DNA from: Kosakonia sp. BYX6
GTDB taxonomy: Bacteria; Pseudomonadota; Gammaproteobacteria; Enterobacterales; Enterobacteriaceae
DNA length: 64,000 bases
Assembly (NCBI RefSeq): GCF_038449125.1
Contig: NZ_CP151800.1
Coordinates: 3,444,406-3,508,405 of the forward strand
Direction of reading: 5' to 3'
A model generated the notes under the pieces. The model did not search any database and was not told the DNA's origin. It was given only the letters and a program-made list of their open reading frames with translations. The first letter of the stretch is position 1. Each line of letters begins with the position of its first letter. Below are positions 197 through 63,570 of this stretch, piece after piece. A program made the position numbers and the translations under genes.

Positions 197-256
197 TAAG
201 ATACCAGGTTGGCGCGTCGAACAGGCGCGCCGTTTCAGGGATCTCAGGGAGCAGCA

Positions 257-1273: not shown

Positions 1274-2017
1274 TTAACCGCGCCCGACGAAGGGCATGCC
1301 GTTCGCCATAATCGTCATTTCCAGCACATTGGTTGTTACCGGCATGGCGGCAATCATGGCGATGGCCTGCGCGACATCCGCCACATCCATCATCTCTTCC
1401 GCCTGAATCGAGCCATCCGCCTGATAAACGCCTTTGCGCATGCGCCCGGACATTTCGGTTTCCGCATTGCCAATGTTGATTTGCCCGCAGGCGATATTGA
1501 ATTTGCGGCAATCGAGAGAGATGGATTTTGTCAGGCCGGAAATGGCATGTTTCGAGGCGGTGTAAGCCGCGCTATATAAACGCGGGGTCATGGCGGATAT
1601 CGACGCGTTATTGATAATGCGCCCGCCCATTGGCTGCTGATTTTTCATGATTTTGATCGCCTCTTGCGCGCACAAAAAGCTGGCGTGGACGTTGACATTA
1701 AACACCCGCAGCCACTCCTCAAAAGGGATCTCTTCAATGGATTTGGCCGGGCTATTGTTACCCGCGTTATTGAATAACACATCCAAGCGACCGGCATCTT
1801 TGCGAATGCGGGCAAAAAGCTGTTGTACCGCGTCCGGATCGGCAACGTCGGCCACCACCGGAATAAAGCGTTCAGGAGCAAAGCCCTCCGCACACGCTTT
1901 CAGTTGTTCTTCGTTGCGGGCTGCGACAAACACCATATACCCCATTTGATACAGCGCTTTCGCGGCTGCCAGACCGATGCCTTTGCTTCCACCCGTAACC
2001 AGTGCAACGTTTGCCAT
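1274..2017 (-). CDS. Short-chain dehydrogenase/reductase (SDR)
   Basis: A 247-residue classical SDR. It has the nucleotide-binding TGGSKGIG motif at residues 8-15, NNAG at 83-86, and the catalytic Ser139, Tyr152 and Lys156 (NNASI ... AYTASK). The start at 2017 is preceded by AGGAG with 8-nt spacing; upstream codons are not family-like. It should catalyse an NAD(P)(H)-dependent alcohol/ketone interconversion in the cytosol; substrate unknown. Its stop lies directly against the stop of the LacI-type gene (convergent, no gap). It is not part of the E. coli order near ybcI, so it belongs to the accessory left edge. Confidence 0.85.
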   Translation of the reverse strand: MANVALVTGGSKGIGLAAAKALYQMGYMVFVAARNEEQLKACAEGFAPERFIPVVADVADPDAVQQLFARIRKDAGRLDVLFNNAGNNSPAKSIEEIPFEEWLRVFNVNVHASFLCAQEAIKIMKNQQPMGGRIINNASISAMTPRLYSAAYTASKHAISGLTKSISLDCRKFNIACGQINIGNAETEMSGRMRKGVYQADGSIQAEEMMDVADVAQAIAMIAAMPVTTNVLEMTIMANGMPFVGRG

Positions 2018-2222
2018 TCTCTTCGCTCCTGATAGTTGATTTGCACGCAAAATCAGCGTGTTTAGCAAACTACACCGTTGTCGGCTGATGTAAATTGTCA
2101 TCGGCCTAAAAAGCGGCGCGAAAATTCAGGCGTTCTGCCGACGACAACAGTTTCAGATAACAGAGCAGTTCTTCGCGTTTACGCTACGTTTATAATTTCT
2201 TTTTTCACCAGAGACATACGTC

Positions 2223-2744
2223 ATGCCAACGATTGTTACTCATGCCGCCGTGCCCCTTTGTCTGGGGCTGGGTCTTGGCAGCAAAGTTATCCCAAAAGGT
2301 TTGTTGCTGGCGGGGATGGGCTTAGCCATGCTGCCGGACGCCGATGTGCTGGCGTTTAAATTTGGCGTTGCCTACGGCAATATTTTCGGCCATCGCGGGT
2401 TTACCCATTCGCTGCTGTTCGCCTTTGTGGTGCCGCTGTTGGTTACCTGGCTTGGGCGCAAGAAGTTCAAGGCGAGCCTGACGCGCTGTTGGGTGTTTTT
2501 AACGGTTTCGCTGTTGTCGCACAGTTTGCTGGATTCGGTGACCACCGGCGGCAAAGGGGTTGGCTGGTTATGGCCGTGGTCGGATGAGCGCTTTTTTGCT
2601 CCGTGGCAGGTGATCAAGGTCGCGCCCTTCGCGCTGTCGCGCTATACCACGCCGTACGGGCACCAGGTGATCATTTCAGAGTTAATGTGGGTGTGGTTGC
2701 CAGGGGTGATTGTGATGGGGTTATTGTGGTGGCGCAGGCGTTAA
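2223..2744 (+). CDS. ybcI: YbcI, membrane-bound metal-dependent hydrolase family (DUF457/YdjM-like)
   Basis: A 173-residue inner-membrane protein, nearly identical to E. coli YbcI along its length as I remember it. Conserved His and Asp residues that define this putative metal-dependent hydrolase family are visible: THAAVP at the N-terminus, MLPDADVL near residue 40, GHRGFTHS near 58 and SHSLLDSVTTGG near 100. Several hydrophobic segments predict four or so membrane spans. The reaction is unknown; the LexA-regulated paralogue YdjM is related. It sits next to cysS as in E. coli, here convergent with it and separated by a REP pair. Confidence 0.9.
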   Translation: MPTIVTHAAVPLCLGLGLGSKVIPKGLLLAGMGLAMLPDADVLAFKFGVAYGNIFGHRGFTHSLLFAFVVPLLVTWLGRKKFKASLTRCWVFLTVSLLSHSLLDSVTTGGKGVGWLWPWSDERFFAPWQVIKVAPFALSRYTTPYGHQVIISELMWVWLPGVIVMGLLWWRRR

Positions 2745-2760
2745 CCGCCACGTGGTTGAT

Positions 2761-2856
2761 TGCCGGATCGCGCTGAACGCTTATCCGGCCTACCTGGCTC
2801 ACGTGGAATGATAGGCCAGGAGTAGGCCGGATAAGGCGAAGCCGCCATCCGGCGAA
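2761..2856. repeat. REP/BIME element (two opposed REP units)
   Basis: Two palindromic REP units in opposite orientation: one ending in the TTATCCGGCCTAC core at about 2780-2793 and one beginning GTAGGCCGGATAAGGCG at about 2823, closing with GCCATCCGGCG. The arrangement is a BIME between the convergent ybcI and cysS genes, the usual place for such elements. It may stabilise transcripts or bind gyrase or IHF (family knowledge). Confidence 0.85.
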
Positions 2857-2897
2857 CGTATACGGTATACGATTAACCCGTAGCCGTTTTTATGCTG

Positions 2898-4283
2898 TTA
2901 CTTACGACGCCAGGTTGTGCCCTGCGGGCCATCTTCCAGCACAATTCCCATCTCATTGAGACGATCGCGCGCCGCATCGGCTGCCGCCCAATCCTTCGCT
3001 TTACGTGCGTCCAGACGTTGTTGGATCAGCTGCTCGATCTCCACGACTTCACCGTCATCCGCCTGCGCGCCGCTTTGCAAGAACAGATCCGGATCCTGCT
3101 CCAACAAACCCAGCACACCCGCCAGTTTGCGCATATGTGACGCCAGCGCATTCGCCGCGTGGGCATCTTCCGTTTTCAGGCGGTTCACTTCGCGCGCCAT
3201 ATCAAACAGCGCCGAGTAAGCTTCCGGCGTATTGAAGTCATCGTTCATCGCGTCGACAAAACGCGCTTCAAACGCTTCGCCACCTTCTGCGGGCACCGAC
3301 GCATCCGTCCCGCGCAGCGCGGTGTACAAGCGCTCCAGCGCGGAACGCGCCTGTTTGAGGTTTTCCTCGCTGTAGTTCAGTTGGCTGCGATAGTGACCAG
3401 ACATCAAGAAGTAACGGATGGTTTCCGCGTCGTAATACTTCAGCACGTCGCGCACGGTAAAGAAGTTGCCGAGGGATTTTGACATCTTCTCGCGGTCAAC
3501 CATCACCATGCCGGAGTGCATCCAGTAATTGACGTATTCGCCATCGTGCGCGCAAGTGGACTGGGCAATTTCGTTTTCATGGTGCGGGAACATCAAATCC
3601 GAGCCGCCGCCGTGAATATCAAAATGCGAACCCAGTTGTTTGCAGTTCATCGCCGAGCACTCAATGTGCCAGCCAGGACGCCCTTCACCCCACGGCGATT
3701 GCCAGCTCGGTTCGCCCGGCTTGGACATTTTCCACAACACGAAATCCATCGGATTACGCTTCACTTCGGCAACTTCAACACGCGCACCGGCTTGCAATTG
3801 ATCCAGATCCTGGCGCGAAAGCTGGCCGTAAGTCGGATCCGTCGGCACGGAGAACATCACATCGCCGTTTTCCGCCACGTAAGCGTGACCGCGTTCCAAA
3901 AGACGTTCAGTGAGTTCAATAATTTCGTGAATATGGTGTGTGGCGCGCGGTTCGTTGTCCGGGCGCAGGATATTGAGCGCGTCAAAATCCTTATGCATCT
4001 CAACGATCATCCGGTCGACCAGCGCGACAAAGCTTTCGCCGTTTTCATTAGCGCGCTTAATGATTTTGTCGTCGATATCGGTGATGTTGCGCACGTATTT
4101 CAGCTTATAGCCAAGAAAACGCAGATAACGGGATACCACATCGAAAGCGACAAACGTACGGCCATGACCAATATGACAGAGATCGTAGACAGTGATACCA
4201 CACACGTACATGCCGACTTCCCCGGCATGGATAGGTTTGAATTCCTCTTTTTGGCGCGTCAGTGTATTAAAGATTTTTAACAT
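2898..4283 (-). CDS. cysS: Cysteinyl-tRNA synthetase
   Basis: 461 residues, the E. coli length. Class I synthetase signatures are present: CxxCxxxHIGHGR-type region near residues 28-42 (the first cysteine coordinates the active-site zinc) and KMSKS followed by LGN near residue 270. Zinc ligands continue with HIECSAM and [15 protein letters not shown]. It charges tRNA-Cys in the cytosol. The ATG start is followed by [14 protein letters not shown] as in enterobacterial homologues. It is divergent from ppiB across a 173-bp gap, as in E. coli. Confidence 0.97.
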
Positions 4284-4456
4284 CGAAGATTCCGTGTAGA
4301 CGTGTGTGGAATGAAAACCGCTTATATTACCTGTAATTCAAACCCGAAGCAGCACACTTTGCAAGGTGATCCAGCCTCGCGGTTATGCTATAACAGGCGA
4401 CTATCTCTGGCCCACATCCGGGTCGCAGCACCACACTATCAGAACAGGATGCAATA

Positions 4457-4951
4457 ATGGTCACTTTCCACACTAATCACGGCGACATCGTAATCAAAAC
4501 CTTCGATGACAAAGCGCCTGAAACAGTTAAAAACTTCCTGGACTATTGCCGTGAAGGTTTCTACAACAACACCATTTTCCACCGTGTCATTAACGGTTTT
4601 ATGATTCAGGGCGGCGGTTTTGAACCGGGCATGAATCAGAAAGTCACCAAAGATCCAATCCAAAACGAAGCCAACAACGGCCTGAAAAACACCCGTGGTA
4701 CGCTGGCAATGGCCCGTACTCAGGCGCCGCACTCCGCCACCGCGCAGTTCTTCATTAACGTCGCTGACAACGACTTCCTGAACTTCAGCGGCGAGAACCT
4801 GCAAGGTTGGGGTTACTGCGTGTTCGCAGAAGTGGTTGAAGGGATGGACGTGGTCGACAAAATCAAAGCGGTGTCCACCGGCCGCAGCGGTATGCATCAA
4901 GACGTACCGAAAGAAGACGTTACCATCGAAAGCGTGGACGTCAGCGAGTAA
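4457..4951 (+). CDS. ppiB: Peptidyl-prolyl cis-trans isomerase B (cytosolic cyclophilin)
   Basis: 164 residues without a signal peptide, matching cytosolic PpiB. The cyclophilin core is intact: [14 protein letters not shown] near residues 40-53, the active-site Arg in [19 protein letters not shown] near 87-102, and the WGYC segment near residue 120. It catalyses isomerisation of Xaa-Pro peptide bonds. ppiB ends three bases before the GTG start of lpxH, so the two are probably co-transcribed and translationally coupled, as in E. coli. Confidence 0.97.
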
Positions 4952-4954
4952 TTC

Positions 4955-5677
4955 GTGGCGACACTCTTTATCGCAGACCTGCATCTGCACACAGAAGAAC
5001 CGGCAATCACCGCCGGTTTTCTGCGCTTTTTAGCGAGCACCGCGCGCGAAGCGGATGCGCTCTATATTCTGGGCGATCTGTTTGAAGCGTGGATTGGCGA
5101 CGACGATCCCAACCCGCTGCACCAGCAAATCGCCGAAGCGATCAAATCCCTCGTCGACAACGGTGTGCCTTGCTATTTCATTCATGGCAACCGCGATTTT
5201 CTGCTCGGCAAACGCTTCGCCCGCGCCAGCGGTATGCAATTACTGCCGCAAGAGCAGGTGCTTGATCTTTATGGTCGCAAGGTGCTGATTATGCACGGCG
5301 ACACGCTCTGTACAGACGATGTGGACTACCAGGCGTTACGCGCCAGAGTGCATCAGCCGTGGCTGCAAACCCTGTTTCTCGCCCTGCCGCTGTTTATTCG
5401 CCATCGCGTGGCCGCGAAAATGCGTGCCGGAAGCAGCGCCTCGAATAACAGCAAGACGCTGGAAATGATGGATGTGACTCAACAGGCGGTGGTTGACGCC
5501 ATGGAAAAACATCACGTTCAGTGGCTGATCCACGGTCACACCCATCGCCCGGCCGTGCATGAACTCACCGCGAATCACGCCCCGGCGTACCGCGTAGTAT
5601 TAGGGGCGTGGCACAGCGAAGGGTCAATGGTGCGCGTCAGCGAAACCGACGTTGAGCTGATCCCTTTTCCCTTCTGA
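4955..5677 (+). CDS. lpxH: UDP-2,3-diacylglucosamine diphosphatase LpxH
   Basis: 240 residues from a GTG start. The calcineurin-like metallophosphoesterase motifs are complete: ADLHLH (residues 7-12), [11 protein letters not shown] (about 40-50), HGNRDF (about 78-83), [10 protein letters not shown] (about 113-122) and GHTHRPAVH (about 195-203). These place two Mn ions in the active site. LpxH hydrolyses UDP-2,3-diacylglucosamine to lipid X at the inner membrane, the fourth step of lipid A synthesis. The last 54 bases overlap, tail to tail, the 3' end of the ABC transporter gene on the other strand. Confidence 0.97.
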
Positions 5678-7396
5678 CAGCGTTCGCTCTTGCTCCTGCG
5701 CCTGCCATAAACGGGCGTAAAGCCCGCCCTTCGCCAGCAAGTGCGTATGCGTGCCTCGTTCCACAATCCGGCCATTCTCCAGCACTAAAATCTGCGACGC
5801 GAATTCAACGGTGCGCAGACGATGGGCGATCATCAATACCGTTTTCCCACGCGCCAGCTTGCTGAGCGCCATTTGCACCTGCGCCTGAGAAAGCGGGTCC
5901 AGCAGGGCTGTGGCTTCGTCGAGAATGATGATCGCCGGATCTTTTAACATCATCCGCGCAATCGACAGCCGCTGACGCTCACCGCCGGAAAGCCGCTGCG
6001 CACCCTCGCCCAATCGCGTGTGGTAACCCTGTGGCAGCCGCTCGATGAATTCCTGGCACCAGGCCTGGCGGCAGGCTTCAATTATCTGTTCATCATTGGC
6101 CTGCGGGTTGCCAATGCGCACATTGTCCAGCACCGAGCCATCAAACAGCTGCACATCCTGCATCACATACCCCATACGCTGGTGCAGTTCGCGCGCGCCG
6201 AGTTTCGCCAACGCAACACCGCCGAGCGATATTTCACCCTGCTGCGGCGACCAGAAACCGCCCAACAAATGCAGCAACGTGCTTTTGCCGCTGCCGGAGG
6301 GCCCCACCAGCGCCGTCACGCTACCTTCCGGGGCAGTGAAGGAGATATCGCTGACCACCGGCTGACTATCGTAGGCGAAACTCACCTTCTCAAAACGAAC
6401 GCTGTTCCCTTGCGTGGTGGAACCATTGCCCTCCTCCGGCTGCGTGGGTTCGGCCATTAACGCGTCCAGTTTTGCCGCTGATTGCCGCATCACCCGCAGC
6501 AACGTAAACCACGCCGCCGCGTCCAGCAGCGGGCTAATCACTTTGTACCCCACCAGCACAAACAGCAGCCATGTCGCTGGCGGTAGCGCGTCTTGCTGCC
6601 ACAGTGCGGCGGCGGTGATAAACATCACTACTAACCCGCTTTCTGCCAGCAGGCGAAACAGCAGCACACCGCCACCTCCCCAGGCTTCCATCCCCATACT
6701 CGCACGGCGGATATCGGCAAATGTCTCATCGAGGCGCACCAGCATCTGTTGATGGCGGTTAAACAAACGCAGGGTTTTGATACCGCTAACAAACTCGACC
6801 AGCAAGCCGGAGGCGATGGCAAACCGCTGCCCCTGCTCACACGCGCCGCGCAGCAGGAAATGGGTCATCAGCCACAGCAGCAACGCGCCAGGAATCACGG
6901 TGGCAAACAGCGCCAGCGTGAGCCACGGGTCGACCAGCATTAGCAGCATTGCAAACAGTAGCGGCGTGACCAGCCCCAGCACCACTTCCGGCAGCATATG
7001 CGAGAAAATCTCTTCCACCCGTTTCACTTGGTCGGTCAGCAGCGCCGAGGTTGAACCAACCCGATGCCGCTGAAACCAGCCGAGCGGCAAACGCCGTAAA
7101 TGCTCGGCCAGCGCCTGACGGTACTGGCTCATCAACGCGTAGCTGCCAAGAAAACAGTCCAGTTGACCAAAATGGGAGAACACCAGTTGCGCCAGCAGGC
7201 AAATGCCCAGCCCGGCAGCGAGCCAGCTCCACTGGCTCCAGCCCCCGCCGCCCCACTGCAAATCGCCAAGGGCAAGCCAGGCGATAAAAAACGGCAACAC
7301 CGTAAACAACTGCGCCAGCGTGCGCAGCGCAATGCCGCGTAAAAACTGGCGACGCCCCTGTTGTGAATAACGTAATAACCCGCTAAGCCCTTGCAC
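5624..7396 (-). CDS. ABC transporter, fused membrane and ATPase domains, second half-transporter of the pair
   Basis: 590 residues from a GTG start at 7396. The start is set by AGGAGG seven bases upstream and it overlaps the upstream ABC gene by 14 bp; the open frame continues to 7579 but that extension looks like out-of-frame translation of the neighbour. An exporter-fold membrane domain (about residues 20-300, five or six hydrophobic segments) is followed by an ATPase domain with Walker A GPSGSGKS near 365, signature LSGGERQR and Walker B IIILDEAT. It should form a heterodimer with the product of the upstream gene. The layout recalls YbtP/YbtQ and IrtA/IrtB, which have the exporter fold but import ferric siderophores. 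Its 3' end overlaps lpxH by 54 bp. Substrate unproven. Confidence 0.85.
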
Positions 7397-9119
7397 CCGC
7401 TGCCTCCTGTTGTTGATCACGAATATGCCACTGCTGTAAGCGAAACTGGCTGTGCCACAAATCCCGATACAGCGGGCTGTCGCGCAATAACGCCGGATGG
7501 TCGCCAAGCGCGACCAGTTCACCGTTATCGAGCAGCAAAATAGCCTCGGCGTGCTGCACGGCGAAGAGCCGGTGGGCAATGGCCACCACGGTCATCGCAG
7601 GCCAGGTCTTGCGCAGAGCGAGATAAAACGCGTTTTCGGTCAGCGCATCGGCGAACGCCGTGGCTTCATCGAGAATGAGTATTGTCGGTTGCGCCAGTAG
7701 CGCTCGCGCAATGGCAATCCGCTGACGTTCGCCGCCTGAAAGGCTCACGCCCCGCTCGCCAACCAGGGTTTGCAGGCCTTGCGGTAGCGCCGCAACAAAC
7801 GCCTGTGCCTGTGCAACACCCAGCGCCTGCCAGATTTGCTCATCGCTGGCCGACGGGCAGCCAAGCCGCAGGTTTTCCGCCAACGTGCCGCGAAAAATAA
7901 ACACCTCCTGGCTGACCATCCCCAGCAACTGCGCGCGGCGAGCATCAGAAAGGCGGTCAACCGCCACGCCGCCCAGCGTGATTTCGCCTTTGTCGGGCGA
8001 CAATAGACCGGCCATCAACCAGGCGAGGGTCGATTTCCCCGCGCCGGACGGCCCCACCAGCGCGTAAAACCCGCCCGGCGAAAGGGTAAAAGAGAGATCG
8101 TTGAGAATGGGGCTGCCGGGGTAGCCAAAATACACATGGCTAACCTGCAAGCGGAGGTCGGCAGGCGTCGGATCGTCATTGCTTGCGGCAGGTTGCAAAA
8201 AGACAGCGATGCGCGCCACGCCCGCCAGCATTTCGCGGATCAGAGAGGCCATAAACGTTACGCGCAATAGCGGCTGAATCAGCCCGCTCCCGAGCAGTAA
8301 AATCAGGATTAACTGCGCCACCGTCAGGCCGCCGTGGCTTACCCGCCAGATCCCCAGCGGCAGCAAAATAAAGATGCTGGCATTGAGCAGCACCGTAAAC
8401 AGCGACCAACCGGGCACCGCACTGTGCGTAAAACGGGTGATCAGCGCGCGGTACTGTTCGAGGCTATCGTTCAGCAGGCGAAAGGCGCGACTGCTCTGGC
8501 AAAACGCCTTCATCACCGGAATGCCGCGCACATATTCCACAATCGCGGCGTTCAGCTTACTGGTCGCCGCGTTATATTCCGCGACCCGCTCAGCCATGCC
8601 GCGCATGGCGATTTTCTGCGCCAACAACGCCAGCGGAACCGTTGCCAGCGCAGCCAGCGCCATTTGCCAGTCGCTCCAGAAGAGAAACGCAGCGGCCACT
8701 AACGGGCTGAGTAATGCGGCGGTGAAATCCACCGTATGGTGAGCGATAAACCCTTCCAGCCGTTCGACATCGTTGATCACGATATTGCGCAAACTGCCGG
8801 AAGCGTAGGTCGAAAGCTGGCTTAAGGGCAGGCGCGTCAGCCCGCGCGCGACAGCCATGCGCACATCGTAAAGTACGCGAAACGCCGCCCGATGGCTAAA
8901 CCACCCGGCGATCGCCAACAGCAGATATTTCACCCCCAGCGCCAGCGCTAACCAGGCGGCCAACTCCAGCAAATTTTCCGGGTGCTGAACGGCTTGCCAG
9001 AGCAAATACCAGGGCAGCAATTCACTGATAACCGACAGCGCCGCCAACAACATCGCGGCGATTAGCCCGGCGCGCTGCCCGGCAATCAGCGTCAGTAAAA
9101 GGTGAGACGGCGAGTTCAT
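7383..9119 (-). CDS. ABC transporter, fused membrane and ATPase domains, first half-transporter of the pair
   Basis: 578 residues if it starts at ATG 9119, which has GGAGG seven bases upstream; an alternative ATG at 9164 with a weaker AGGGA would add 15 residues. Exporter-type membrane domain over about residues 15-290, then ATPase domain with Walker A GPSGAGKS near 355, signature LSGGERQR, Walker B ILILDEAT and a downstream AHRL switch histidine. No export signal, no peptidase or cyclase domain. Overlapping translation with the next gene indicates a two-gene operon and a heterodimeric transporter. The divergent-side neighbour is an AraC regulator with a Fur-like box, so iron-chelate transport is my leading guess. 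Drug export is the main alternative. Confidence 0.85.
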   Translation of the reverse strand: MNSPSHLLLTLIAGQRAGLIAAMLLAALSVISELLPWYLLWQAVQHPENLLELAAWLALALGVKYLLLAIAGWFSHRAAFRVLYDVRMAVARGLTRLPLSQLSTYASGSLRNIVINDVERLEGFIAHHTVDFTAALLSPLVAAAFLFWSDWQMALAALATVPLALLAQKIAMRGMAERVAEYNAATSKLNAAIVEYVRGIPVMKAFCQSSRAFRLLNDSLEQYRALITRFTHSAVPGWSLFTVLLNASIFILLPLGIWRVSHGGLTVAQLILILLLGSGLIQPLLRVTFMASLIREMLAGVARIAVFLQPAASNDDPTPADLRLQVSHVYFGYPGSPILNDLSFTLSPGGFYALVGPSGAGKSTLAWLMAGLLSPDKGEITLGGVAVDRLSDARRAQLLGMVSQEVFIFRGTLAENLRLGCPSASDEQIWQALGVAQAQAFVAALPQGLQTLVGERGVSLSGGERQRIAIARALLAQPTILILDEATAFADALTENAFYLALRKTWPAMTVVAIAHRLFAVQHAEAILLLDNGELVALGDHPALLRDSPLYRDLWHSQFRLQQWHIRDQQQEAAGARA

Positions 9120-9215
9120 GGCGGTTCCTCCCGTGGGAACGGAAGGAGGACTAACGTGTGACATCTGGCGTTCCCTGTTATGAAAAAAAGCGGGCGACGC
9201 CGTGCGTTTTGCGCG

Positions 9216-10085
9216 TCACCCGGCGGGAGGCGCGTGGTTTTTACGGTACGCTCCCGGCGTCATACCAAATTGCTGGCGGAAAAAACGGTTTAAGTGGCTG
9301 GCGTGGCTAAAGCCGCTCTGGACAGCAACCTCTTGCAGCGAAAGCCGATCTCCCAGCAGATGACGGGCATGTTCCAGCCGCCTTTGGATCACGTAGTTCC
9401 ATAGCGTGATGCCAAACATCGCTGGAAAGCCGCGCTTGAGAGCCATCAAACTGAGCCCACAAATCTGGGCGATTTCCCCCATCGACTGCACCTGCGTAGC
9501 ATGCTCGCGCACATAATCGCGTGCCGCGATCAGCCGCCTTCGGTCACGGCTTTGCAACTCCCGCGTCGGCGCCGGGCTGGCGGCGAACAAATCAACACCG
9601 CGCAGTGCTTCCCATAAAGCACCGAGCGCCAGGCTTTCCAGCCGTAACGTCCCCAGCGCACTTTCGTCATTCCACGCCAGCAATATCTGGCGCAATTGTT
9701 CCTGCAATGCGTGATTCAGCGCCGCGCTAAACACGCGCCCGCCCTCTTCCGGCAGCGGTAACGCAGCGGCATAGAGCGTATTGAGCAGCGCGGGTTCAAA
9801 GTCGACGATCAGCAGATCGTAAAAGTGGTTGCGGGGGAAAAAATCGAACCCGCTGCATGACACTGCCGAACAGGAGATCAGCAGTGTGTTGGCGCCGAAC
9901 TGCTGCACCTTTTGCTGGTTAAGCTGGAAAGTGCCTGCCCCTTCACGCATCAGCACCAGCGAGAAATGCGCCGGAAAATCGCCGCGCACCACTTTGTCAT
10001 TGCTGAGCGTCGTGCAAATCGCCGTCAGGCGAATGCGCGGCGACAGCACCCTGCATCGCATGCCGGGCATTGTACGTTGATTCAT
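9216..10085 (-). CDS. AraC-family transcriptional regulator
   Basis: 289 residues from ATG 10085, preceded by AAGGA at good spacing. The frame is open to 10352 but the extension would run through the purE promoter and lacks family resemblance. The C-terminal 100 residues form the double helix-turn-helix AraC DNA-binding domain: SMGEIAQICGLSLMALKRGF for the first helix-turn-helix and VAVQSGFSHASHLNRFFRQQFG for the second. The N-terminal part (about 1-180) is an unassigned effector-binding domain, suggestive of YbtA/PchR-type regulators that sense siderophores. It lies 96 bp upstream of the ABC pair on the same strand and probably activates it. Confidence 0.85.
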   Translation of the reverse strand: MNQRTMPGMRCRVLSPRIRLTAICTTLSNDKVVRGDFPAHFSLVLMREGAGTFQLNQQKVQQFGANTLLISCSAVSCSGFDFFPRNHFYDLLIVDFEPALLNTLYAAALPLPEEGGRVFSAALNHALQEQLRQILLAWNDESALGTLRLESLALGALWEALRGVDLFAASPAPTRELQSRDRRRLIAARDYVREHATQVQSMGEIAQICGLSLMALKRGFPAMFGITLWNYVIQRRLEHARHLLGDRLSLQEVAVQSGFSHASHLNRFFRQQFGMTPGAYRKNHAPPAG

Positions 10086-13353: not shown

Positions 13354-14013
13354 TCAATGCCGGTCGCGTTTATCGGCGCGTTTCGCCAGCCAGTCGCCCA
13401 ACATCTGCACCACCTGCACCAGCACAATCAGCGCCACCACCGTTACGATCATCACCTGCGTTTCATAACGGTAATAACCGTAGCGAATCGCCAGGTCACC
13501 GACCCCGCCGCCGCCCACAATCCCGGCCATTGCCGAATAACCGATCAGGCTCACCAGCGTAATGGTCAACCCGCGCAGCAGACCCGCGCTGGCTTCCGGC
13601 AACAGCACCGTACAAATAATGCGTAACGGGCTGGCACCAAAGGCTTCCGCCGCTTCAATAATCCCTTTATCCACTTCGCGCAGCGCGCTATCCACCAGCC
13701 GGGCGTAGAAAGCAATTGCGGCGACAGATAACGGCACCGACGCGGCAATCGGCCCGATGGTATTGCCCAGCAGCCACTGCGTCAGCGGCAACAACAGCAC
13801 CAGCAGAATCACGAACGGCACGGAACGAATGATGTTCACCAGCACCGAGCTAATCAGGTAAACCGCGCGGTTTTGCCAGAACAGGTGTCTATCGGTAACG
13901 AAAATCAGAAAACCCAGCGGTAAGCCGCCGACAATCGCCAGCACCGTTGAGATGCTGAGCATCTGGAATGTTTCGCCAAACGCCAGGCTCAGGTCAGCCA
14001 ATAAATCATCCAC
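13354..14013 (-). CDS. MetI-type ABC permease (NlpA/MetQ-dependent importer, SfbC/MetI-like)
   Basis: 219 residues with about five membrane spans. The cytoplasmic EAA loop that docks on the ATPase is visible as IIEAAEAFGASPLRI near residue 139, and the MetI-type tail [24 protein letters not shown] follows. It should form the inner-membrane channel of an importer with the two genes upstream on the same strand. Its start overlaps the end of the ATPase gene by eight bases, so the three genes form one operon (binding protein, ATPase, permease). The system is like MetNIQ and like the Salmonella SfbABC transporter. Substrate unknown; methionine is only one option. Confidence 0.9.
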   Translation of the reverse strand: MDDLLADLSLAFGETFQMLSISTVLAIVGGLPLGFLIFVTDRHLFWQNRAVYLISSVLVNIIRSVPFVILLVLLLPLTQWLLGNTIGPIAASVPLSVAAIAFYARLVDSALREVDKGIIEAAEAFGASPLRIICTVLLPEASAGLLRGLTITLVSLIGYSAMAGIVGGGGVGDLAIRYGYYRYETQVMIVTVVALIVLVQVVQMLGDWLAKRADKRDRH

Positions 14014-15028
14014 GGATCACCTCCACCTGCGCGGTCCGGTTGCGAATATAGTCCACGGCGTCGCTCACCGCCGCAGGGTTATCTGCGGCGGTCAGTTGCA
14101 CCACCAGGATCCCCAGCGCCCGCTCGCCGATGTACTCGATTTTGCCGTGCAGAATATTCACCGCCACGCCAAATTTCACCGCCGCGTCAGAGAGCACCGG
14201 TTGTTCGGCGGAATCGCCAATAAACAGCACCTTCAACAACTGGCCCGGCAAATGCTGCTGCAAGCGATCCGGCAACGTCAGGTTGAGGGTATGCGACACC
14301 AGTTGCTGCGTAAACGCATGCTGCGGATGGGCAAAAACATCAAATACTGCGCCCTCTTCCACCACTTTGCCGGCGGACATCACCGCCACCCGATCGCAGA
14401 TCGATTTGATCACATTCATCTCGTGTGTGATCAGCACAATGGTGATGCCCATCTGCTCGTTGATCTGTTTTAACAGCGCGAGAATGGTGGCGGATGTTTC
14501 CAGATCCAGTGCAGATGTCGGTTCGTCGCACAGCAACACATCCGGATGATTGGCGATGGCGCGCGCAATACCGACGCGTTGTTTTTGGCCGCCGCTGAGC
14601 TGCACCGGGTAGCGGTTCGCTTTATCGCTTAAGCCGACTAACGCCAGGATCTCCGCCACGCGCGGCGCGATTTTGCTGCGTTCCCAACCGGCGGCTTTCA
14701 GGCTGAAAGCGACGTTTTGCGCCACGGTGCGGGTGTGCATCAAATTAAAGTGCTGAAAAATCATACCAATACGCTGGCGAGCCTGGCGCAGCGTAACGCC
14801 TTCCAGCGCGGATATCGCCACGCCGTTGATGTTGACGCTGCCCTGGCTTGGGCGTTGCAGCGCATTCAGCGTGCGCAGCAGCGTGCTTTTGCCCGCACCG
14901 CTGGTGCCGACAATGCCGAAAATCTCCCCGGCGGCAATGCGTAACGAAACATCTTCTACCGCGCGGGTCGCGTTACTGCTGCCGCGACCGGCGGGAAAAT
15001 CCACGCACACGTTTTCTATTTCAATCAT
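14006..15028 (-). CDS. MetN-type ABC ATPase with C-terminal NIL domain
   Basis: 340 residues from ATG 15028 (GAGG five bases upstream); a longer start at 15046 is less likely. ATPase core: Walker A GTSGAGKST near residue 38, Q-loop FQHFNL, signature LSGGQKQR near 140 and Walker B VLLCDEPTSALD near 160. About 75 residues at the C-terminus (from roughly 265) match the NIL domain, which in MetN binds methionine and shuts transport off. That makes methionine or a close analogue more likely for this system than for the second one at 62123-62914, which lacks this domain. Confidence 0.92.
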   Translation of the reverse strand: MIEIENVCVDFPAGRGSSNATRAVEDVSLRIAAGEIFGIVGTSGAGKSTLLRTLNALQRPSQGSVNINGVAISALEGVTLRQARQRIGMIFQHFNLMHTRTVAQNVAFSLKAAGWERSKIAPRVAEILALVGLSDKANRYPVQLSGGQKQRVGIARAIANHPDVLLCDEPTSALDLETSATILALLKQINEQMGITIVLITHEMNVIKSICDRVAVMSAGKVVEEGAVFDVFAHPQHAFTQQLVSHTLNLTLPDRLQQHLPGQLLKVLFIGDSAEQPVLSDAAVKFGVAVNILHGKIEYIGERALGILVVQLTAADNPAAVSDAVDYIRNRTAQVEVIRG

Positions 15029-15085
15029 GCAAACCTCAAACGGCAAAAGGCAGGCCGCAGCCTGCCTGTTAAATCAGCCGGATTA

Positions 15086-15922
15086 TTACTGCTTATCCGC
15101 GCTCTGCATCCAGTCTGGTTTCTGGAAAGCGGTAAATACGTTTTTTGGATCGTCGATCACCGCGCGATAAGCGGGCGATTTCACCACGTCGACAATATCT
15201 TTGGCGAACGGCTTATCTGCATCTTCGGTACGTACGGCGATGATATTTTTTAGATTCTCATCCAGGTGCTCTTGTTTGAGCGCGCTGTTGAGATCCATAC
15301 CGGCGGCAATGGCAAAGTTGCCGTTAACCAGCGCGGCGGTAACGCCATCCAACGTGCGCGGCAATTGCGCGGCTTCCAGCGGCTTAAACACCAGCCCTTT
15401 CGGGTTGCTGGCGATATCACGCTCGGAGGCTTTGGTCGGATCGATGGAATCTTTGATGGTGATGAGGTTCAGCGATTGCAGGAAACGCAGCCCGCGCGCC
15501 AGGTTGGTCGGATCATTGGAGAGCGTCACAATGTCGCCCTTTTTCAGCTCATCAAGGCTTTTGATTTTATGGGAATAAAAACCCATTCCCGCCGTGGGAA
15601 CCGAGAGCAGTTTGGTTAATTTCAGGCCTTTGTCGGCGGTGAATTTATCGAAATAGAGGCTGTGCTGGAACAGGTTGGCATCGATGCTACCGTTCGCCAG
15701 CGCCATGTTTGGCTGCACGTAATCGCTGAATTCGCGCACCACAACTTTGTAGCCTTTCTCTTTTAGCGACGGCGCAATGGCCTGTTTCACCATGTCGCCG
15801 TAAGGGCCAGGTGCAACGCCGAAAATGATGGTGTGCGGATCGCTGCTGGCGTGCGCGAACGGTAAACCACAAACCAGAAGCAGCGCGCCGAAGGCCGCGC
15901 GTAAGCTGAGACGACGTCCCAT
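15086..15922 (-). CDS. Periplasmic substrate-binding protein, NlpA/MetQ family
   Basis: 278 residues. Cleavable signal peptide (RLSLRAAFGALLLVCGLPFAHA, about residues 4-25) ending in AHA-S; the only cysteine there is not in a lipobox, so the protein is probably soluble in the periplasm, unlike E. coli MetQ, which is a lipoprotein. The mature part follows the family: GVAPGPYGDMV, LANGSIDANLFQH near residue 82, SNDPTNLARGL near 136 and ALVNGNFAIAAGM near 190. First gene of the three-gene importer operon. Its 5' region is the 384-bp gap up to the porin. Confidence 0.92.
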   Translation of the reverse strand: MGRRLSLRAAFGALLLVCGLPFAHASSDPHTIIFGVAPGPYGDMVKQAIAPSLKEKGYKVVVREFSDYVQPNMALANGSIDANLFQHSLYFDKFTADKGLKLTKLLSVPTAGMGFYSHKIKSLDELKKGDIVTLSNDPTNLARGLRFLQSLNLITIKDSIDPTKASERDIASNPKGLVFKPLEAAQLPRTLDGVTAALVNGNFAIAAGMDLNSALKQEHLDENLKNIIAVRTEDADKPFAKDIVDVVKSPAYRAVIDDPKNVFTAFQKPDWMQSADKQ

Positions 15923-58900: not shown

Positions 58901-59602
58901 ATGAATCAGCTAAATGAATTTGAGCAACCTATCGGCGATGCGCTACCCGACTGGCAACCGCGCCCCTTCCCGGAACGCGTGGTACTTGATGGGCAGTATT
59001 GCCGCCTCGAACCACTGACTACCGATCACGCCGCGGCGCTTTTCCAGGCGCATCAGTTAGCAGGCGACAGCCGCAGTTGGACTTGGTTAATGCGAGAGCC
59101 AGAACGCAATGAAACCGAGTTTCGCGCGTGGGTGGCAAGCGTTAGCACTTTGCGCGATCCGCTGCATTTCGCGGTGATTGATAAGCGCAGCAACGCGCCG
59201 GTCGGCAGTTTGTCGCTGATGCGCATTGATGAGAAAAACGGCGTGATGGAAGTGGGCAGTGTGCATTTCTCGCCACTGCTGACCCGCACGCCAGCCTCAA
59301 CCGAAGCGCAGTGGTTACTCATGCGCTACGCCTTTGAAACGCTGGGTTACCGCCGCTACGAGTGGAAGTGCAATAGCCTGAATGAACCGTCACGCCAGGC
59401 GGCGCTCCGTTTAGGTTTTCAGTATGAAGGCCGTTTTCGCCAGGCGCTGGTCTGCAAAGGTCATAACCGTGACACGGACTGGTTTTCGATTATTGATAGC
59501 GAGTGGCCGCAGGTTGATCGCGCGCTGCAACGCTGGCTTGCCGCCGATAATTTCACCACCGACGGCAAGCAGCGCCATGCCCTTTCTTCCCTGCGGGCTT
59601 AA
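58901..59602 (+). CDS. GNAT acetyltransferase, RimJ/RimL-like
   Basis: 233 residues with AAGGAG upstream of the ATG. RimJ/RimL-type GNAT fold: [19 protein letters not shown] near 100-118, the pantetheine site [16 protein letters not shown] near 145-160 and [14 protein letters not shown] near 165-178. It acetylates an N-terminus or small amine with acetyl-CoA; substrate unknown. Faces the MocR gene. Its stop overlaps the rpmJ2 stop by four bases. Confidence 0.88.
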
Positions 59603-59739
59603 CGTTTTTTCTTTCTGCCCTGCACCGCTTTAAAACGCGGGTTGGATTTACAGATCACATATAAACGCCCCTTGCGCTTAACGATTTGGCAGTCAGGGTG
59701 GCGTTGTTTCGCGCTACGCAGTGAATTCAGTACCTGCAT
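59599..59739 (-). CDS. rpmJ2: Ribosomal protein L36 paralogue, zinc-independent type (RpmJ2/YkgO)
   Basis: 46 residues: starts [20 protein letters not shown], ends AVQGRKKKR. Only Cys17 and Cys30 remain of the CCCH zinc knuckle of normal L36, so it is the zinc-free paralogue. It follows rpmE2 by three bases on the same strand, one operon, behind a Zur-like box. Too short to be found by usual size limits. Confidence 0.95.
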
Positions 59740-59742
59740 GAT

Positions 59743-60003
59743 TTAGTCCTTTTTGTCACTGAAAAAGCGGCCATAACGCTGCTGGAAACGCGCCGCGCTG
59801 CCTTCGTTGGAGATCACTTTCTGCTTGCCGGTGTAATACGGGTGCGAAGCGGAAGAAACTTCAAGGGTGACATAGGGATACGTCACGCCTTCCAGTTCGA
59901 TTTCACGATCCGTTTTGATGGTCGAACCAACTTTGAAATATTCGTTCGCGCTGGTGTCGTGAAACACCACGGTGCGGTAATGCGGGTGGATATCGGGTCT
60001 CAT
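59743..60003 (-). CDS. rpmE2: Ribosomal protein L31 type B, zinc-independent (RpmE2/YkgM)
   Basis: 86 residues without any cysteine, [22 protein letters not shown] ... GRFFSDKKD. It replaces zinc-bound L31 on the ribosome when zinc is scarce, freeing zinc. Co-transcribed with rpmJ2. A Zur-like dyad lies 15 bp upstream of the ATG. Confidence 0.96.
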
Positions 60004-60017
60004 GATTCACTCTTTTG

Positions 60018-60038
60018 TTTTGTTATAACATAACAAAA
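60018..60038 (-). promoter_or_regulatory. Zur box upstream of rpmE2-rpmJ2
   Basis: Nine-bp perfect arms TTTTGTTAT and ATAACAAAA with a 3-nt centre AAC. Family knowledge: Zur sites are AT-rich dyads with the core TGTTATA-N-TATAACA. Zinc-bound Zur would repress this operon. Confidence 0.8.
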
Positions 60039-60196
60039 GTCTATCGAAGTTGTTTCACCTTTTCAAGCCATCCGCGTTATGCGTTTTTTGCAAAAGCACA
60101 TAACCCTGCCCGGTCATAAATTAGAAAAGAACGTTATTGGTTGAATTGTTGCGCCTAAGGCAAGCTGTCACCACACCCAGCCGAGAGGAAAAGACC

Positions 60197-60322
60197 ATGC
60201 GTTGTTGTCGCTCCCAAACCCTGAGCCTGAACAGAGATTTTTCATCCACCGCTTGCGGAGAAAACAATGAACGCGACTACGCTGCCCATCCTCGATCTCG
60301 CCCGTTACACACAAGACGCTGA
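60197..60322 (+). CDS. Candidate Cys-containing leader peptide ORF upstream of the dioxygenase operon
   Basis: 41 codons, starting MRCCRSQ, with a strong ribosome site (GAGAGGAA seven bases upstream of ATG). Two adjacent Cys codons TGT TGT are codons 3 and 4; there is one more Cys at about codon 20. The frame runs on past the dioxygenase start (60267) and ends at TGA 60320-60322, so it overlaps by 56 bp and could couple translation. I recognise no family. I infer a regulatory leader, possibly cysteine-sensing. The reading frame could also be chance, but the ribosome site is better than that of many genes here. Confidence 0.5.
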   Translation: MRCCRSQTLSLNRDFSSTACGENNERDYAAHPRSRPLHTRR

Positions 60323-61295
60323 GCGCGACGCTTTTCTTGCCGAATTGCGCCATGCCGCGCGCGATATCGGTTTTTTCTACCTGGTAAATCACGGCGTCGA
60401 TGATGCATTGCAAACCGCCGTACAACGCGAAGCCCGCCACTTTTTTGCCCTTTCTGATACGCAAAAACAGCACGTGGCGATGATCCACTCCCCCCACTTT
60501 CGCGGCTACAACCGCGCAGCCTCGGAACTTACCCGCGGGCAGCCCGACTGGCGCGAACAGTTTGATATTGGCGCAGAACGCCCGGCGTTACAGCTGAGCG
60601 AGAGCGATCCCCGCTGGCAGCGCTTGCAAGGTCCAAACTTGTGGCCTGAAGCGTTGCCAACGTTGAAACCCGCCCTGCTCGCCTGGCAACGCGCGATGAC
60701 TTCCATGGCACTAACGTTGCTTCAGGCGTTTGCCGAAGCGTTGCATCTGCCCGCCGATGCCTTCGATGCGCTGTATGGCGAAAAACCGAACGAGCACATC
60801 AAGCTGATTCGCTATCCCGGTCAGCAAACCACGCAGAGTGCGCAAGGCGTTGGCGCGCATAAAGATTCCGGTTTTCTCAGTTTTCTGTTGCAGGACGAAC
60901 AAAAAGGTTTGCAGGTGGAAGTCGAACCAGGCCGCTGGATCGATGCGACACCGTTGGCGGGCAGTTTTGTCGTTAATATCGGCGAATTGCTGGAACTGGC
61001 GACCAATGGCTATTTACGCGCCACGGTTCATCGCGTGGTTTCGCCGCCGGCCAGCCAACAGCGTCTTTCCATCGCCTTTTTCCTCGGCGCGCAACTCGAT
61101 GCCATCGTCCCGCTGTACACCTTGCCGCCCGAGCTGGCGCAAGAAGCGCATGGGCCGGAGAGCGATCCGCAGAACCCGTTATTGCGCGATGTCGGCTGGA
61201 ATTACCTGAAAGGACGCCTGCGATCCCACCCGGATGTGGCGGAACGTTATTACCGCGATGTGCTGCGTGAGCGCACAGAACAACTGATCGTCTGA
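60267..61295 (+). CDS. 2-oxoglutarate/Fe(II)-dependent dioxygenase, isopenicillin-N-synthase-like
   Basis: 342 residues. IPNS-like N-terminal domain (LPILDLARYTQD near 6-17, DIGFFYLVNHGV near 33-44) and jelly-roll core with Fe ligands His198 and Asp200 (GAHKDSG) and His255 (TVHRVV). Arg266 and Ser268 (QRLS) form the usual 2-oxoglutarate site. It should hydroxylate or oxidise a small molecule in the cytosol. It opens an operon with a MetQ/MetN/MetI-like importer (25-bp gap to the next gene), so the imported substrate is probably what it oxidises. The layout parallels tauABCD, where TauD releases sulfite from taurine. Confidence 0.9.
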   Translation: MNATTLPILDLARYTQDAERDAFLAELRHAARDIGFFYLVNHGVDDALQTAVQREARHFFALSDTQKQHVAMIHSPHFRGYNRAASELTRGQPDWREQFDIGAERPALQLSESDPRWQRLQGPNLWPEALPTLKPALLAWQRAMTSMALTLLQAFAEALHLPADAFDALYGEKPNEHIKLIRYPGQQTTQSAQGVGAHKDSGFLSFLLQDEQKGLQVEVEPGRWIDATPLAGSFVVNIGELLELATNGYLRATVHRVVSPPASQQRLSIAFFLGAQLDAIVPLYTLPPELAQEAHGPESDPQNPLLRDVGWNYLKGRLRSHPDVAERYYRDVLRERTEQLIV

Positions 61296-61319
61296 CAATA
61301 ACAACACAGGAAAAACATC

Positions 61320-62126
61320 ATGAAACATGCCTTTTTTACGCTGGCAGGGGTAGCACTGTCTCTTTCACTGGCCTGGACGTCGGCGCAAGGCGCCGCCTTA
61401 CGCGTCGCTGCCGATCCGGTTCCGCACGCCGAAATTCTCAACTACATCAAGACGATCGATCCAAAACTGGATCTGCAAGTGGTGGAGCTGACCAGCGGCG
61501 CGAATGCCAATGAACTGCTGGCGAATGGCGATGTCGACGCCAACTATTTCCAGCATGTGCCCTACCTGAAGGATCAGGAAAAAGCGCTGGGCAAAACCTT
61601 CGCCGTGGCGGCAACGGTGCATATCGAACCGCTCGGCATCTATTCACGCAAACACAAAGATTTCACATCGCTGCCGGAGAACGCCACCGTGGCCGTGCCC
61701 AATAACATCACCAACCTGAGCCGCGCGTTGTTCCTGCTGCAAAGCCAGGGGTTGATTAAGCTCGACGGCAAATTCACCGATCCGGCGACCACGCAGGCGA
61801 CACCGAAAGATATCGCCGACAACCCGAAACACCTGAAGATCCTTGAGATCGAATCTCCGCAGATCCCGCGCTCGCTGGACGATGTGGATTTGGCGGTGAT
61901 CAACGGCAACTACGCGCTGGAAGCAGGCTTATCGCCTGCAAAAGACGCGCTGGGGCTGGAGAGCGCCAGCCATAATCCCTACGCCAATATTCTGGTGACC
62001 AACCCGCAGCTTGCTAACGATCCACGCATCAAGGAACTGGCGAAAGATCTGACGTCGCCGCAGGTCGCAGCGTTTATTCGCAAGCACTATAACGGCTCGG
62101 TGATCCCGGTCGCGCCGCAGTCATGA
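61320..62126 (+). CDS. Periplasmic substrate-binding protein, NlpA/MetQ family (second system)
   Basis: 268 residues. Signal peptide 1-25 ([21 protein letters not shown]), no lipobox cysteine. Family motifs: [28 protein letters not shown] near 59-85, [14 protein letters not shown] near 127-140 and [15 protein letters not shown] near 197. Its sequence is clearly different from the protein at 15086-15922. Stop overlaps the ATPase start by four bases. Expected to catch an amino acid or sulfur-containing analogue in the periplasm. Confidence 0.92.
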
Positions 62127-62914
62127 TCGAGATTGCAGGGCTGAGCAAAATCTACGCCGGAGCAGGCCGACCGGCGCTAAAAGAGGTGTCGTTGAGCGTA
62201 CCGAAAGGGGCGATTTACGGCATTCTCGGGCGCAGCGGTGCAGGGAAAAGCACGCTAATTCGCTGCCTTAACTTACTGGAGCGGCCCACAGCGGGCCGCA
62301 TTCTTGTGAACGGCACTGACATCACGCAACTGGATAAATCCGCCCTGCGCCAACACCGCCTGCGCAGCGGCATGATTTTTCAGCACTTCAATTTACTGCA
62401 TGCGCGCACGGTGGCGGACAACATTGCCGTGCCGCTAGAGATCGCCGGTCTGGCGAAAAACGCGCGTCAGGCGCGGGTGGAAGAGTTGTTGTGGCTGGTC
62501 GGTTTAAGCGAAAAAGCGCGGGCATTTCCGTCACAGCTTTCCGGCGGGCAAAAACAGCGTGTCGGCATTGCCCGAGCGCTGGCGACAAAACCGGATGTGC
62601 TGCTGTGCGATGAAGCGACCAGCGCTTTAGACCCGGAAACCACCGCCTCCGTGCTCGAACTGTTGGCCGATATCAACCAAAAGCTGCAACTCACTATCGT
62701 GCTGATCACTCACGAGCTGGACGTGGTGAAAACCCTCTGTGATCACGCCGCATTGCTGGAAAACGGCGAGTTGATTGAGAGCGGGAAGATCGCCGATTTG
62801 CTGGTGGCGCCCTGGTCGAAATTGCGTCAGGCGCTGTTACACGATCCGCACGTCGAGCAGGCATTTCTCGCCCGCCACGGGTTTAACGGGAGGCCATTAT
62901 GCGTGGTCGCATGA
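62123..62914 (+). CDS. MetN-like ABC ATPase lacking the NIL domain
   Basis: 263 residues. Walker [10 protein letters not shown] near 36, Q-loop FQHFNL near 85, signature LSGGQKQR near 140 and Walker [13 protein letters not shown] near 160. The chain stops after the ATPase core and a short tail, without the 75-residue NIL domain of MetN, so feedback by methionine binding is not expected. Overlaps the upstream gene by four and the downstream gene by 16 bases. Confidence 0.92.
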
Positions 62915-63570
62915 GCTGGGACGATCTTTGGCCGTTGCTGTTCAACGGCACGCTGGAAACACTGTATATGGTCGGGCTGGCGGCATTTTTTACGGTGCTG
63001 ATCGGTCTGCCGATCGGCGTGCTGCTGTTTATTTCTCGTGGCAACGGGCTGGCGCCGATGCCGAAACTCAACGCGCTGCTGGGAGCATTCATCAATTTTG
63101 GCCGTTCGCTGCCGTTTATCGTGCTGCTGATTGCGCTGATCCCTTTTACCCGGCTGCTGATTGGCACCACGCTCGGCAGCACCGCCGCCATCGTGCCGGT
63201 CACTATCGGCGCATTTCCCTTCTTCGCGCGGCTCACGGAAAACGCCCTCGACGAAGTGGATTACGGGCGCATCGAAGCCATTTTGTCGATGGGCGGCAAC
63301 TTGTGGCATGTGATCGGCAAAGCGCTGTTACCCGAAGCGCTTCCCTCGCTGCTGGCAAGTATTACTTTAACGGTGGTGATGCTGATTGGTTTCTCGTCGA
63401 TGGCGGGCGTGATTGGCGGCGGTGGTTTGGGGGATTTGGCGATTCGTTACGGTTACCAACGCTTTAACGATCAGGTGATGATCGGCACGGTGGTGATTCT
63501 GGTGGCGCTGGTTCAGGGCGTGCAAATGGTCGGCGATCGGCTGGTGCGCCGCCTGGCGCACCGCCGTTAA
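62899..63570 (+). CDS. MetI-like ABC permease (second system)
   Basis: 223 residues from ATG 62899, with GGGAGG five bases upstream. About five membrane spans; EAA loop near residue 133 ([30 protein letters not shown]) and the MetI-type tail [26 protein letters not shown]. Last gene of the operon. It ends one base before the stop of the convergent PTS gene. Confidence 0.93.

Follow-up and report, generated by a model that had tools for sequence, protein, structure and literature searches.

A 64,000-nt stretch of DNA from Kosakonia sp. BYX6 (NZ_CP151800.1), referred to here as the window and used for all coordinates, contains a four-gene operon in which a cysteine-free dioxygenase of the Fe(II)/2-oxoglutarate (2OG) type is followed by an ABC importer resembling MetQNI, together with a short leader open reading frame (ORF) that carries tandem cysteine codons and runs across the dioxygenase start. 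Judged from its sequence, this is probably a cysteine-responsive sulfur-scavenging operon, and the leader is read here as a cysteine-responsive translational attenuator. A bolder joint proposal, rather doubtful when taken as a whole, is that the leader would belong to an undescribed class of Enterobacterales translational attenuator (Shine-Dalgarno (SD)-led, locked in frame across the start of its target, and with Cys codons that double as the hiding strand) coupled to a new, cysteine-free 2OG oxygenase that would free cysteine from imported S-substituted cysteines through oxidative dealkylation.

The four genes lie close together on the forward (+) strand within 60267-63570, as the original prediction had proposed and as ORF calls and Pfam domains confirm, with a 24-nt spacer after the first gene and overlaps of 4 and 16 nt thereafter. 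They encode the dioxygenase (60267..61295, 342 aa; DIOX_N and 2OG-FeII_Oxy), a periplasmic binding protein of the MetQ/NlpA family that has no lipobox Cys and carries Gly in place of a pocket Tyr (61320..62126, 268 aa; Lipoprotein_9), a MetN-like ATPase without the C-terminal NIL (C2) domain (62123..62914, 263 aa; ABC_tran), and a MetI-like permease (62899..63570, 223 aa; BPD_transp_1). All of these Pfam matches exceed the gathering score. Since the next gene, at 63572, is convergent, the operon ends at 63570.

The cysteine leader and its conservation

The leader ORF (MRCCRSQTLSLNRDFSSTACGENNERDYAAHPRSRPLHTRR; 60197..60322, + strand) overlaps the start of the dioxygenase gene by 56 nt. Its ATG is preceded by an SD-like sequence (GAGAGGAA; 60183..60190, +), and its peptide begins MRCCRSQ..., the tandem Cys codons TGT TGT starting at 60203 and 60206 (60203..60208, +). 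These codons, of which most relatives have three, are the proposed stall site and the proposed pairing partner of the dioxygenase start region. The SD core of the dioxygenase, GGAG (60257..60260, +), keeps one and the same spacing to the start codon in all 73 of the leader-bearing loci examined, and purine-rich, SD-like stretches, as judged by eye, precede the ATGs of the tabulated leaders. The “Cys leader” mentioned in the original prediction is therefore real and conserved far beyond chance, although it lies mostly outside the 60267..63570 interval given for the finding.

Conservation was followed in the best 80 of 318 encoded dioxygenase relatives, referred to as the named loci, and in additional sequences. 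Of 91 distinct loci, 73 have a leader with clustered Cys codons: 62 named loci out of 80, the window and 10 others. Nineteen further loci yielded five more distinct sequences, all five with a leader in the same frame, which brings the total to 78 of 96. Loci of Klebsiella, Raoultella, Kluyvera, Buttiauxella and Brenneria are among those with the leader. Its reading frame relative to the dioxygenase is identical in 78/78 cases, and it ends 32–62 nt inside the dioxygenase gene in 76 of them; in the other two, L091 and L095, it ends 22 nt before the gene. At both of these loci an ATG that follows the leader stop, in the same frame, reads across the dioxygenase start.

Among the 73 loci, the longest unbroken Cys run is three codons in 50, two in 16, four in three and one in four. 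The spacer from the Cys run to the gene contains stop codons in the leader frame at two of the 73 loci, as against 56 and 39 for the other two frames. A tree of the 73 dioxygenases implies 20 or more changes in leader length, each by a multiple of three, and the SD-to-start spacing of the dioxygenase is constant across that tree (the start having been picked with the help of the SD). Cys codons in the leaders are TGT in 188 cases and TGC in 30. The peptide is poorly conserved outside the Cys run and the codons that lie over the dioxygenase ribosome-binding site, so the retained feature is read-through of the dioxygenase start. Coding-like constraint and clustered Cys codons upstream of a sulfur operon, both expected of an attenuator, are thus found together. 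Cys runs bind metals, and the ORF might instead encode a small metal-binding or otherwise functional peptide and not a cis-acting switch; this is very improbable, as the peptide varies beyond the Cys run and the ribosome-binding-site codons whereas frame and overlap are conserved.

Leaderless loci are found in Escherichia sp. ESNIH1/Pseudescherichia, Pluralibacter, Erwinia, Pantoea, Rouxiella, two Serratia and others, as well as in Yokenella (L112), where a Cys-rich start lies out of place, ~200 nt upstream of the dioxygenase. The leader appears to have been lost naturally in Pseudescherichia-like and Pluralibacter loci (L053, L060, L074 and L083), where, by eye, the dioxygenase begins about where the leader would. 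The two Serratia loci (L118 and L119) have a different short ORF (MLIIRLY...) that starts ~73 nt upstream of the dioxygenase, overlaps its start in the same frame as the Cys leader elsewhere, and ends 44 nt past the reference start. A simple scan for upstream ORFs (uORFs) ahead of ten plasmid-borne relatives, one of them (L176) with a guessed start, revealed no such leader and one unlike, Cys-containing ORF (L169).

A dioxygenase and importer in sulfur-gene surroundings

The dioxygenase has the Pfam domains, the HxD...H facial triad and the fold of the Fe(II)/2OG oxygenases. The Fe ligands described earlier as intact (His198, Asp200 and His255) proved invariant, along with Arg266 and Ser268, in 19 of 19 aligned homologues. 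Its best relative of solved structure is 9OVH, titled an ancestral ethylene-forming enzyme (E 9.7e-53), followed by a Pseudomonas aeruginosa oxidoreductase, 6JYV (E 3.6e-46), whose title refers to isopenicillin N synthase (IPNS). IPNS proper was rejected as the identity of the enzyme, since it scores only ~5e-10 among solved structures. The earlier label “IPNS-like” consequently holds at the family level and fails as a statement about the closest homologue. A taurine-type oxygenase (TauD) was likewise rejected, as Pfam returns DIOX_N and 2OG-FeII_Oxy only and no TauD domain.

The sulfur content of the enzyme is low. It contains no cysteine at 78 of the 80 named loci and 0.96% Met, compared with means of 0.82% Cys and 2.81% Met in 18 other ORFs chosen by hand among the long ORFs of the window. 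Eight of nine plasmid-borne dioxygenase relatives are also Cys-free, as are 72/72 orthologues of the operon’s MetQ and 71/72 of its MetI. Sparing of sulfur in proteins made under sulfur starvation is a known principle.

At E ≤ 1e-40 the dioxygenase occurs in 13 of 15 Kosakonia genomes and, more widely, in 85 of 295 genomes of the family and 46 of its 154 genera. Its homologues are usually accompanied by the importer, an outcome that upholds the original prediction under the genome-neighbourhood search it had suggested: an orthologous metQNI follows the dioxygenase at 72 of the 80 named loci, and a metQNI of any kind at 75. The three additional cases, in Rouxiella (L106, L108 and L110), are divergent sets with ~30%, 50% and 47% identity to the window’s MetQ, MetN and MetI, and such replacement of one metQNI by another suggests a functional tie between enzyme and importer. 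No metQNI lies behind the dioxygenase at the remaining five (L100, L105, L114, L118 and L119). Among 5,426 E. coli genomes, none matched 80% of the region, and the ten matches listed are to metN; a class-wide search at a very strict cut-off returned only the source genome out of 369 and is uninformative on distant relatives.

The binding protein bears on what may be imported. In N. meningitidis MetQ, according to the available text of PMC6739813, Arg156, Asn213 and Asn238 grip the amino and carboxyl groups of methionine, and the thioether is held by Tyr81, Phe98, His100 and Tyr103. When mapped via E. coli MetQ, six of these seven residues are retained in the window protein, with Gly at Tyr81. 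The same Gly is found in 72/72 orthologues, which keep the Phe, the His and the second Tyr; the Arg motif is matched in all 72 and the two Asn motifs in 72 and 71. Gly also occupies this site in the non-orthologous MetQs of Rouxiella and in the MetQ of the first of two Pantoea sets, both of which have Met in place of the Phe. By comparison, the pocket Tyr is present in the three MetQ paralogues of the window genome. A second metQNI operon within the window itself (13354-15922, - strand) has a full-length MetN, NIL domain included, and a MetQ in which the pocket Tyr is retained.

The other importer features also differ from those of a methionine transporter. No Cys occurs in residues 11–35 of any of the 72 MetQ orthologues, so a lipoprotein is not indicated, and a Pfam search of the window MetN gave no match to the NIL domain. 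MetN is 262–264 aa long in 71 of 72 cases and 244 aa in one, compared with 343 aa in E. coli, where the C2 (NIL) domain of MetNI is described as the site of trans-inhibition by L-Met (PMC12357092, available text). Against NCBIfam, the MetN and MetQ/NlpA scores miss their cut-offs, and the MetI score narrowly does so too. The system thus shares three protein families and the amino- and carboxyl-binding residues with MetNIQ but differs in its MetQ, which has no lipobox Cys and a Tyr-to-Gly change in the pocket, and in its MetN, which has no NIL domain; identity as a methionine importer was rejected because the full Tyr/Phe/His/Tyr cage, the NIL domain and a lipoprotein MetQ are all missing. Since the amino/carboxyl site is kept while the pocket and MetN are altered, the substrate is likely an amino acid, and plain methionine is less so. 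The earlier suggestion of an “unusual amino acid” fits on both counts, the noun with the conserved amino- and carboxyl-binding residues and the adjective with the change in the side-chain pocket.

Sulfur genes recur near the dioxygenase. Genes like those for cystathionine beta-synthase (CBS) or gamma-lyase (CGL) lie in the flanks (up to 8 kb) of eight of the 80 named loci, and directly adjoin the dioxygenase at three loci that lack the importer, one of Sodalis (L100) and two of Serratia (L118 and L119). In two Pantoea/Erwinia loci (L115 and L116), a cysK/CBS-like gene is immediately upstream. These neighbours are termed “like” because their scores are all under curated cut-offs. In a sample of ten of the 209 plasmid records with dioxygenase relatives, five (L169, L171, L173, L174 and L177) have close by sulfate, sulfonate or taurine genes (cysTW, ssuD, tauA), or genes for SfnB or O-acetylhomoserine sulfhydrylase. 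A sixth, Pantoea vagans pPag3 (L168), combines two sets of metQNI with an S/N-oxide-reductase-like gene of the bisC family (924 bits against a cut-off of 1017) and an iron-type alcohol dehydrogenase (Fe-ADH). Elsewhere in the sample there is a flavin mononucleotide reductase annotated msuE (Phyllobacterium, L170), a methionine-synthase-II-like gene (Dietzia, L175) and a rhodanese-like gene only (R. acidisoli, L172), while the Aeromonas record (L176) carries no annotation in this region. The pPag3 genes form a single run (44-10082) of metQNI, S/N-oxide-reductase-like gene, dioxygenase, second metQNI, Fe-ADH and NAD(P)H oxidoreductase, which looks like a larger organosulfur island. An internal stop interrupts the CBS-like gene of the window genome, which has another metQ paralogue in its vicinity (G000:C1:953361-954320 and 956452-957231).

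A sulfur role for the operon, as guessed in the original prediction, is well supported by these sequence features, since gene neighbours, cysteine-free dioxygenase and Cys-codon leader each bear on it independently. As for the substrate and reaction, we infer that the MetQ/N/I-type proteins would import a sulfur-carrying amino acid, either bulky or an S-substituted thioether, and that the dioxygenase would oxidize it next to the sulfur, so that the C–S bond breaks and a thiol is released. We would guess most readily at an oxidative S-dealkylation in which an S-substituted cysteine, or a similar thioether, yields cysteine and an aldehyde; for S-substituted cysteine this is possible, though short of probable. 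If cysteine itself were the product, a cysteine-sensing leader would amount to product feedback. Sulfoxide substrates and an aldehyde product would be consistent with the S/N-oxide-reductase-like gene and the Fe-ADH of Pantoea.

Other reactions can be drawn from the same surroundings. A recycling branch, in which the dioxygenase would demethylate methionine (or D-Met) and the resulting homocysteine would be turned into cysteine by CBS and CGL, is suggested by the CBS/CGL-like genes at the eight loci mentioned and by the presence in 13 of 15 Kosakonia genomes of a CBS-like gene, with internal stops in two. Klebsiella, moreover, is said to recycle methionine to cysteine by at least two routes, in work attributed to Seiflein and Lawrence. 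This reading is distinctly unlikely in view of the MetQ side-chain pocket, which is unlike that of methionine binders in 72/72, the absence of the Met-responsive NIL domain, and the internal stop in the window genome’s own CBS copy, even though an IPNS-like oxygenase (pcbC) is reported to cluster with megL and, in a few Shewanella, to have MetJ boxes (PMC3228920, available text). Release of sulfite from an amino-acid-like sulfonate (cysteate, homocysteate or a taurine-like compound), i.e., TauD-type chemistry in another protein family, would match the logic of an importer plus a 2OG-type oxygenase. It also agrees with the neighbours of alpha-proteobacterial relatives, among them SsuD, tauA, SsuA-type and sulfate importer genes; sulfide made from sulfite would supply the adjoining O-acetylhomoserine sulfhydrylases. 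It is nonetheless improbable, given that three thioether-site residues of MetQ (Phe, His and Tyr) are retained, that the TauD domain is missing, and that the Sodalis, Serratia and Brenneria neighbours indicate sulfur at the level of cysteine and homocysteine. Least expected is an action on non-sulfur compounds such as plant alkaloids, beta-lactam-like or secondary metabolites, to which names like IPNS might point. The dioxygenase is similar in sequence to thebaine O-demethylase, and the available text of PMC7423160 proposes, from similarity alone, a morphine-demethylase role for bacterial homologues, including a K. pneumoniae protein that need not be of this subfamily. The neighbouring sulfur genes, the lack of cysteine in the enzyme and the Cys leader leave little room for such a role.

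RNA pairing and the predicted mode of control

A locus was scored as pairing when its minimum-energy fold joined 3 nt or more of the dioxygenase SD region to the Cys tract plus 21 nt. Such pairing is found at 58 of 73 loci and in 25 of 32 representatives, compared with 16.2 and 7.2 in dinucleotide shuffles, and could hide the downstream ribosome-binding site as an attenuator would require. When the start region is counted in, 65 of the 73 loci pair (a figure without shuffle control). In the window fold, 9 nt of the stretch from the SD to +12 are paired with the Cys codons.

We infer translation of the leader, stalling of ribosomes on it and the direction of the response. When charged tRNA-Cys is plentiful, leader ribosomes would pass the Cys codons and run across the dioxygenase start, and the Cys-codon stretch could mask the ribosome-binding site or start codon of the dioxygenase by pairing with it, giving low output. 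When cysteine is short, a ribosome would stall at the Cys codons, occupy the hiding strand and keep leader ribosomes off the start, and the dioxygenase and the genes behind it would be translated.

An effect on transcription is the main alternative for the leader. No intrinsic terminator was found between leader and dioxygenase, as a classical transcription attenuator would have; a single terminator-like match inside the dioxygenase gene (60344-60365) is at chance level, with 0.5 expected in shuffles. An Rfam scan of 59600-61000 gave no match up to E = 1. Attenuation could still be Rho-dependent, such that fast leader translation leaves the dioxygenase mRNA unprotected and a stalled ribosome alters that. 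The overlap does place the leader stop inside the dioxygenase gene, and Rho has been proposed for actinobacterial Cys leaders without terminators (PMC1262725, available text). While no search for Rho sites was made beside that for terminators, the conserved frame and the start-region pairing point to translation initiation, and control at transcription is considered unlikely.

Several observations weigh against a leader-controlled sulfur operon as set out above, or narrow it. No leader is in place at 18 of the 80 named loci, so it is not essential to the role of the dioxygenase. The window’s own leader is outside the 58 that pair, its Cys codons being matched to the start-codon region instead of to GGAG, with the SD paired elsewhere. 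RNAalifold gave no consensus structure for 22 aligned leaders, and any hairpin is accordingly without a fixed register. When cognate and swapped strands were compared, the cognate pair was only slightly better (p 0.02, in a weak test not corrected for the tree), and the start of the leaderless locus L074 pairs more strongly with the common Cys tract (-23.2) than leader-bearing starts do on average (-14.1). A slipping register, with UGU repeats against an ACAACA-like partner, would explain both the missing consensus and the weak swap result. On the protein side, low sulfur is telling for the dioxygenase only, because MetI is Met-rich (3.87%), MetN has ~1.5% Cys, and E. coli MetI and MetQ are similarly Cys-poor (no Cys in MetI, one in MetQ). 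Distant plasmid-borne relatives adjoin other kinds of importer or none, and importer and substrate may therefore not be fixed.

The genome-wide searches belong with these points. A pattern of ATGNNN plus three Cys codons gave 21 matches at 20 loci of the source genome, 18 of which lie across an ORF of at least 90 aa; the other two (L124 and L130) lie across none, and neither shows a clear SD by eye. A second pattern that includes an SD gave 26 matches in seven genomes, six of them in the source genome; those in frame were the dioxygenase leader in four other Kosakonia genomes (L145, L149, L157 and L158) and five inside longer ORFs (L148, L150, L160, L162 and L163). No second SD-led Cys leader was thus found in the genome with the two patterns, both of which miss the window’s own leader, with its two tandem Cys codons, and would likewise miss similar leaders elsewhere. 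By these patterns, a general cysteine regulon is not indicated in this genome.

Upstream of the leader, alignment of 23 upstream regions with MAFFT revealed a conserved block (60113..60142, +) that begins CATAAATTAGAAAAGAACGTTATTGG and is probably a promoter or activator site. The block also occurs at the leaderless locus L053 and partly at L074. No second convincing copy of its core (60121-60140) was seen in the genome; the pattern used gave six matches in total against 12 for a reversed control, by which a genome-wide regulon site was ruled out. Farther upstream are small divergent genes (59602-60003, - strand), whose products resemble the alternative ribosomal proteins L36 and L31.

Relation to known systems and significance

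Cysteine-codon leaders are known already from other bacteria. The polycysteine short-ORF attenuators of mycobacteria, reportedly described by Canestrari et al. in 2020, are said to occlude a downstream ribosome-binding site that a stalled ribosome frees. The present leader shares with them a Cys-codon run upstream of a sulfur operon and the proposed relief of ribosome-binding-site occlusion by a stalled ribosome. It differs in its occurrence in Enterobacterales, in a start that, by eye, appears SD-led instead of leaderless, in its frame-locked overlap into the target (76/78 loci), in having the Cys codons themselves in the pairing strand, and in its target, a dioxygenase-importer operon. Tandem Cys codons in a short uORF are also described, in the available texts, for the uORFC-8-2 motif upstream of cysS in Rhodobacterales (PMC8632094) and for actinobacterial Cys leaders (PMC1262725). 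Unlike the present leader, uORFC-8-2 ends in an intrinsic terminator (PMC8632094), and the targets of both are cysS, cys or cbs genes.

The operon itself resembles TauABCD, to which it had been likened originally, in joining an importer to an Fe(II)/2OG-type oxygenase for sulfur supply. The likeness is one of logic and does not extend to the protein families, as the oxygenase is of the DIOX_N/2OG-FeII_Oxy family and the importer of another family. The pcbC-megL clusters of a MetJ survey (PMC3228920) similarly place an IPNS-like oxygenase beside a transsulfuration-family enzyme; the available text mentions no importer or Cys leader, and the clusters are likened by description. No description of the operon or of a Cys leader in Enterobacterales appeared among the matches listed in a search of titles and abstracts of the open-access literature.

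The frame-locked overlap makes the proposed mechanism directly testable by one reporter, and the natural leader losses in Pseudescherichia and Pluralibacter are ready controls. Enterobacterial cysteine genes are textbook targets of CysB and Cbl; a cysteine-codon attenuator in this order, if true, would add an RNA-level cysteine sensor. The oxygenase, if its proposed role is true, would give plant- and gut-associated bacteria a new way into organosulfur use, and perhaps a route to cysteine that has so far gone unassigned.

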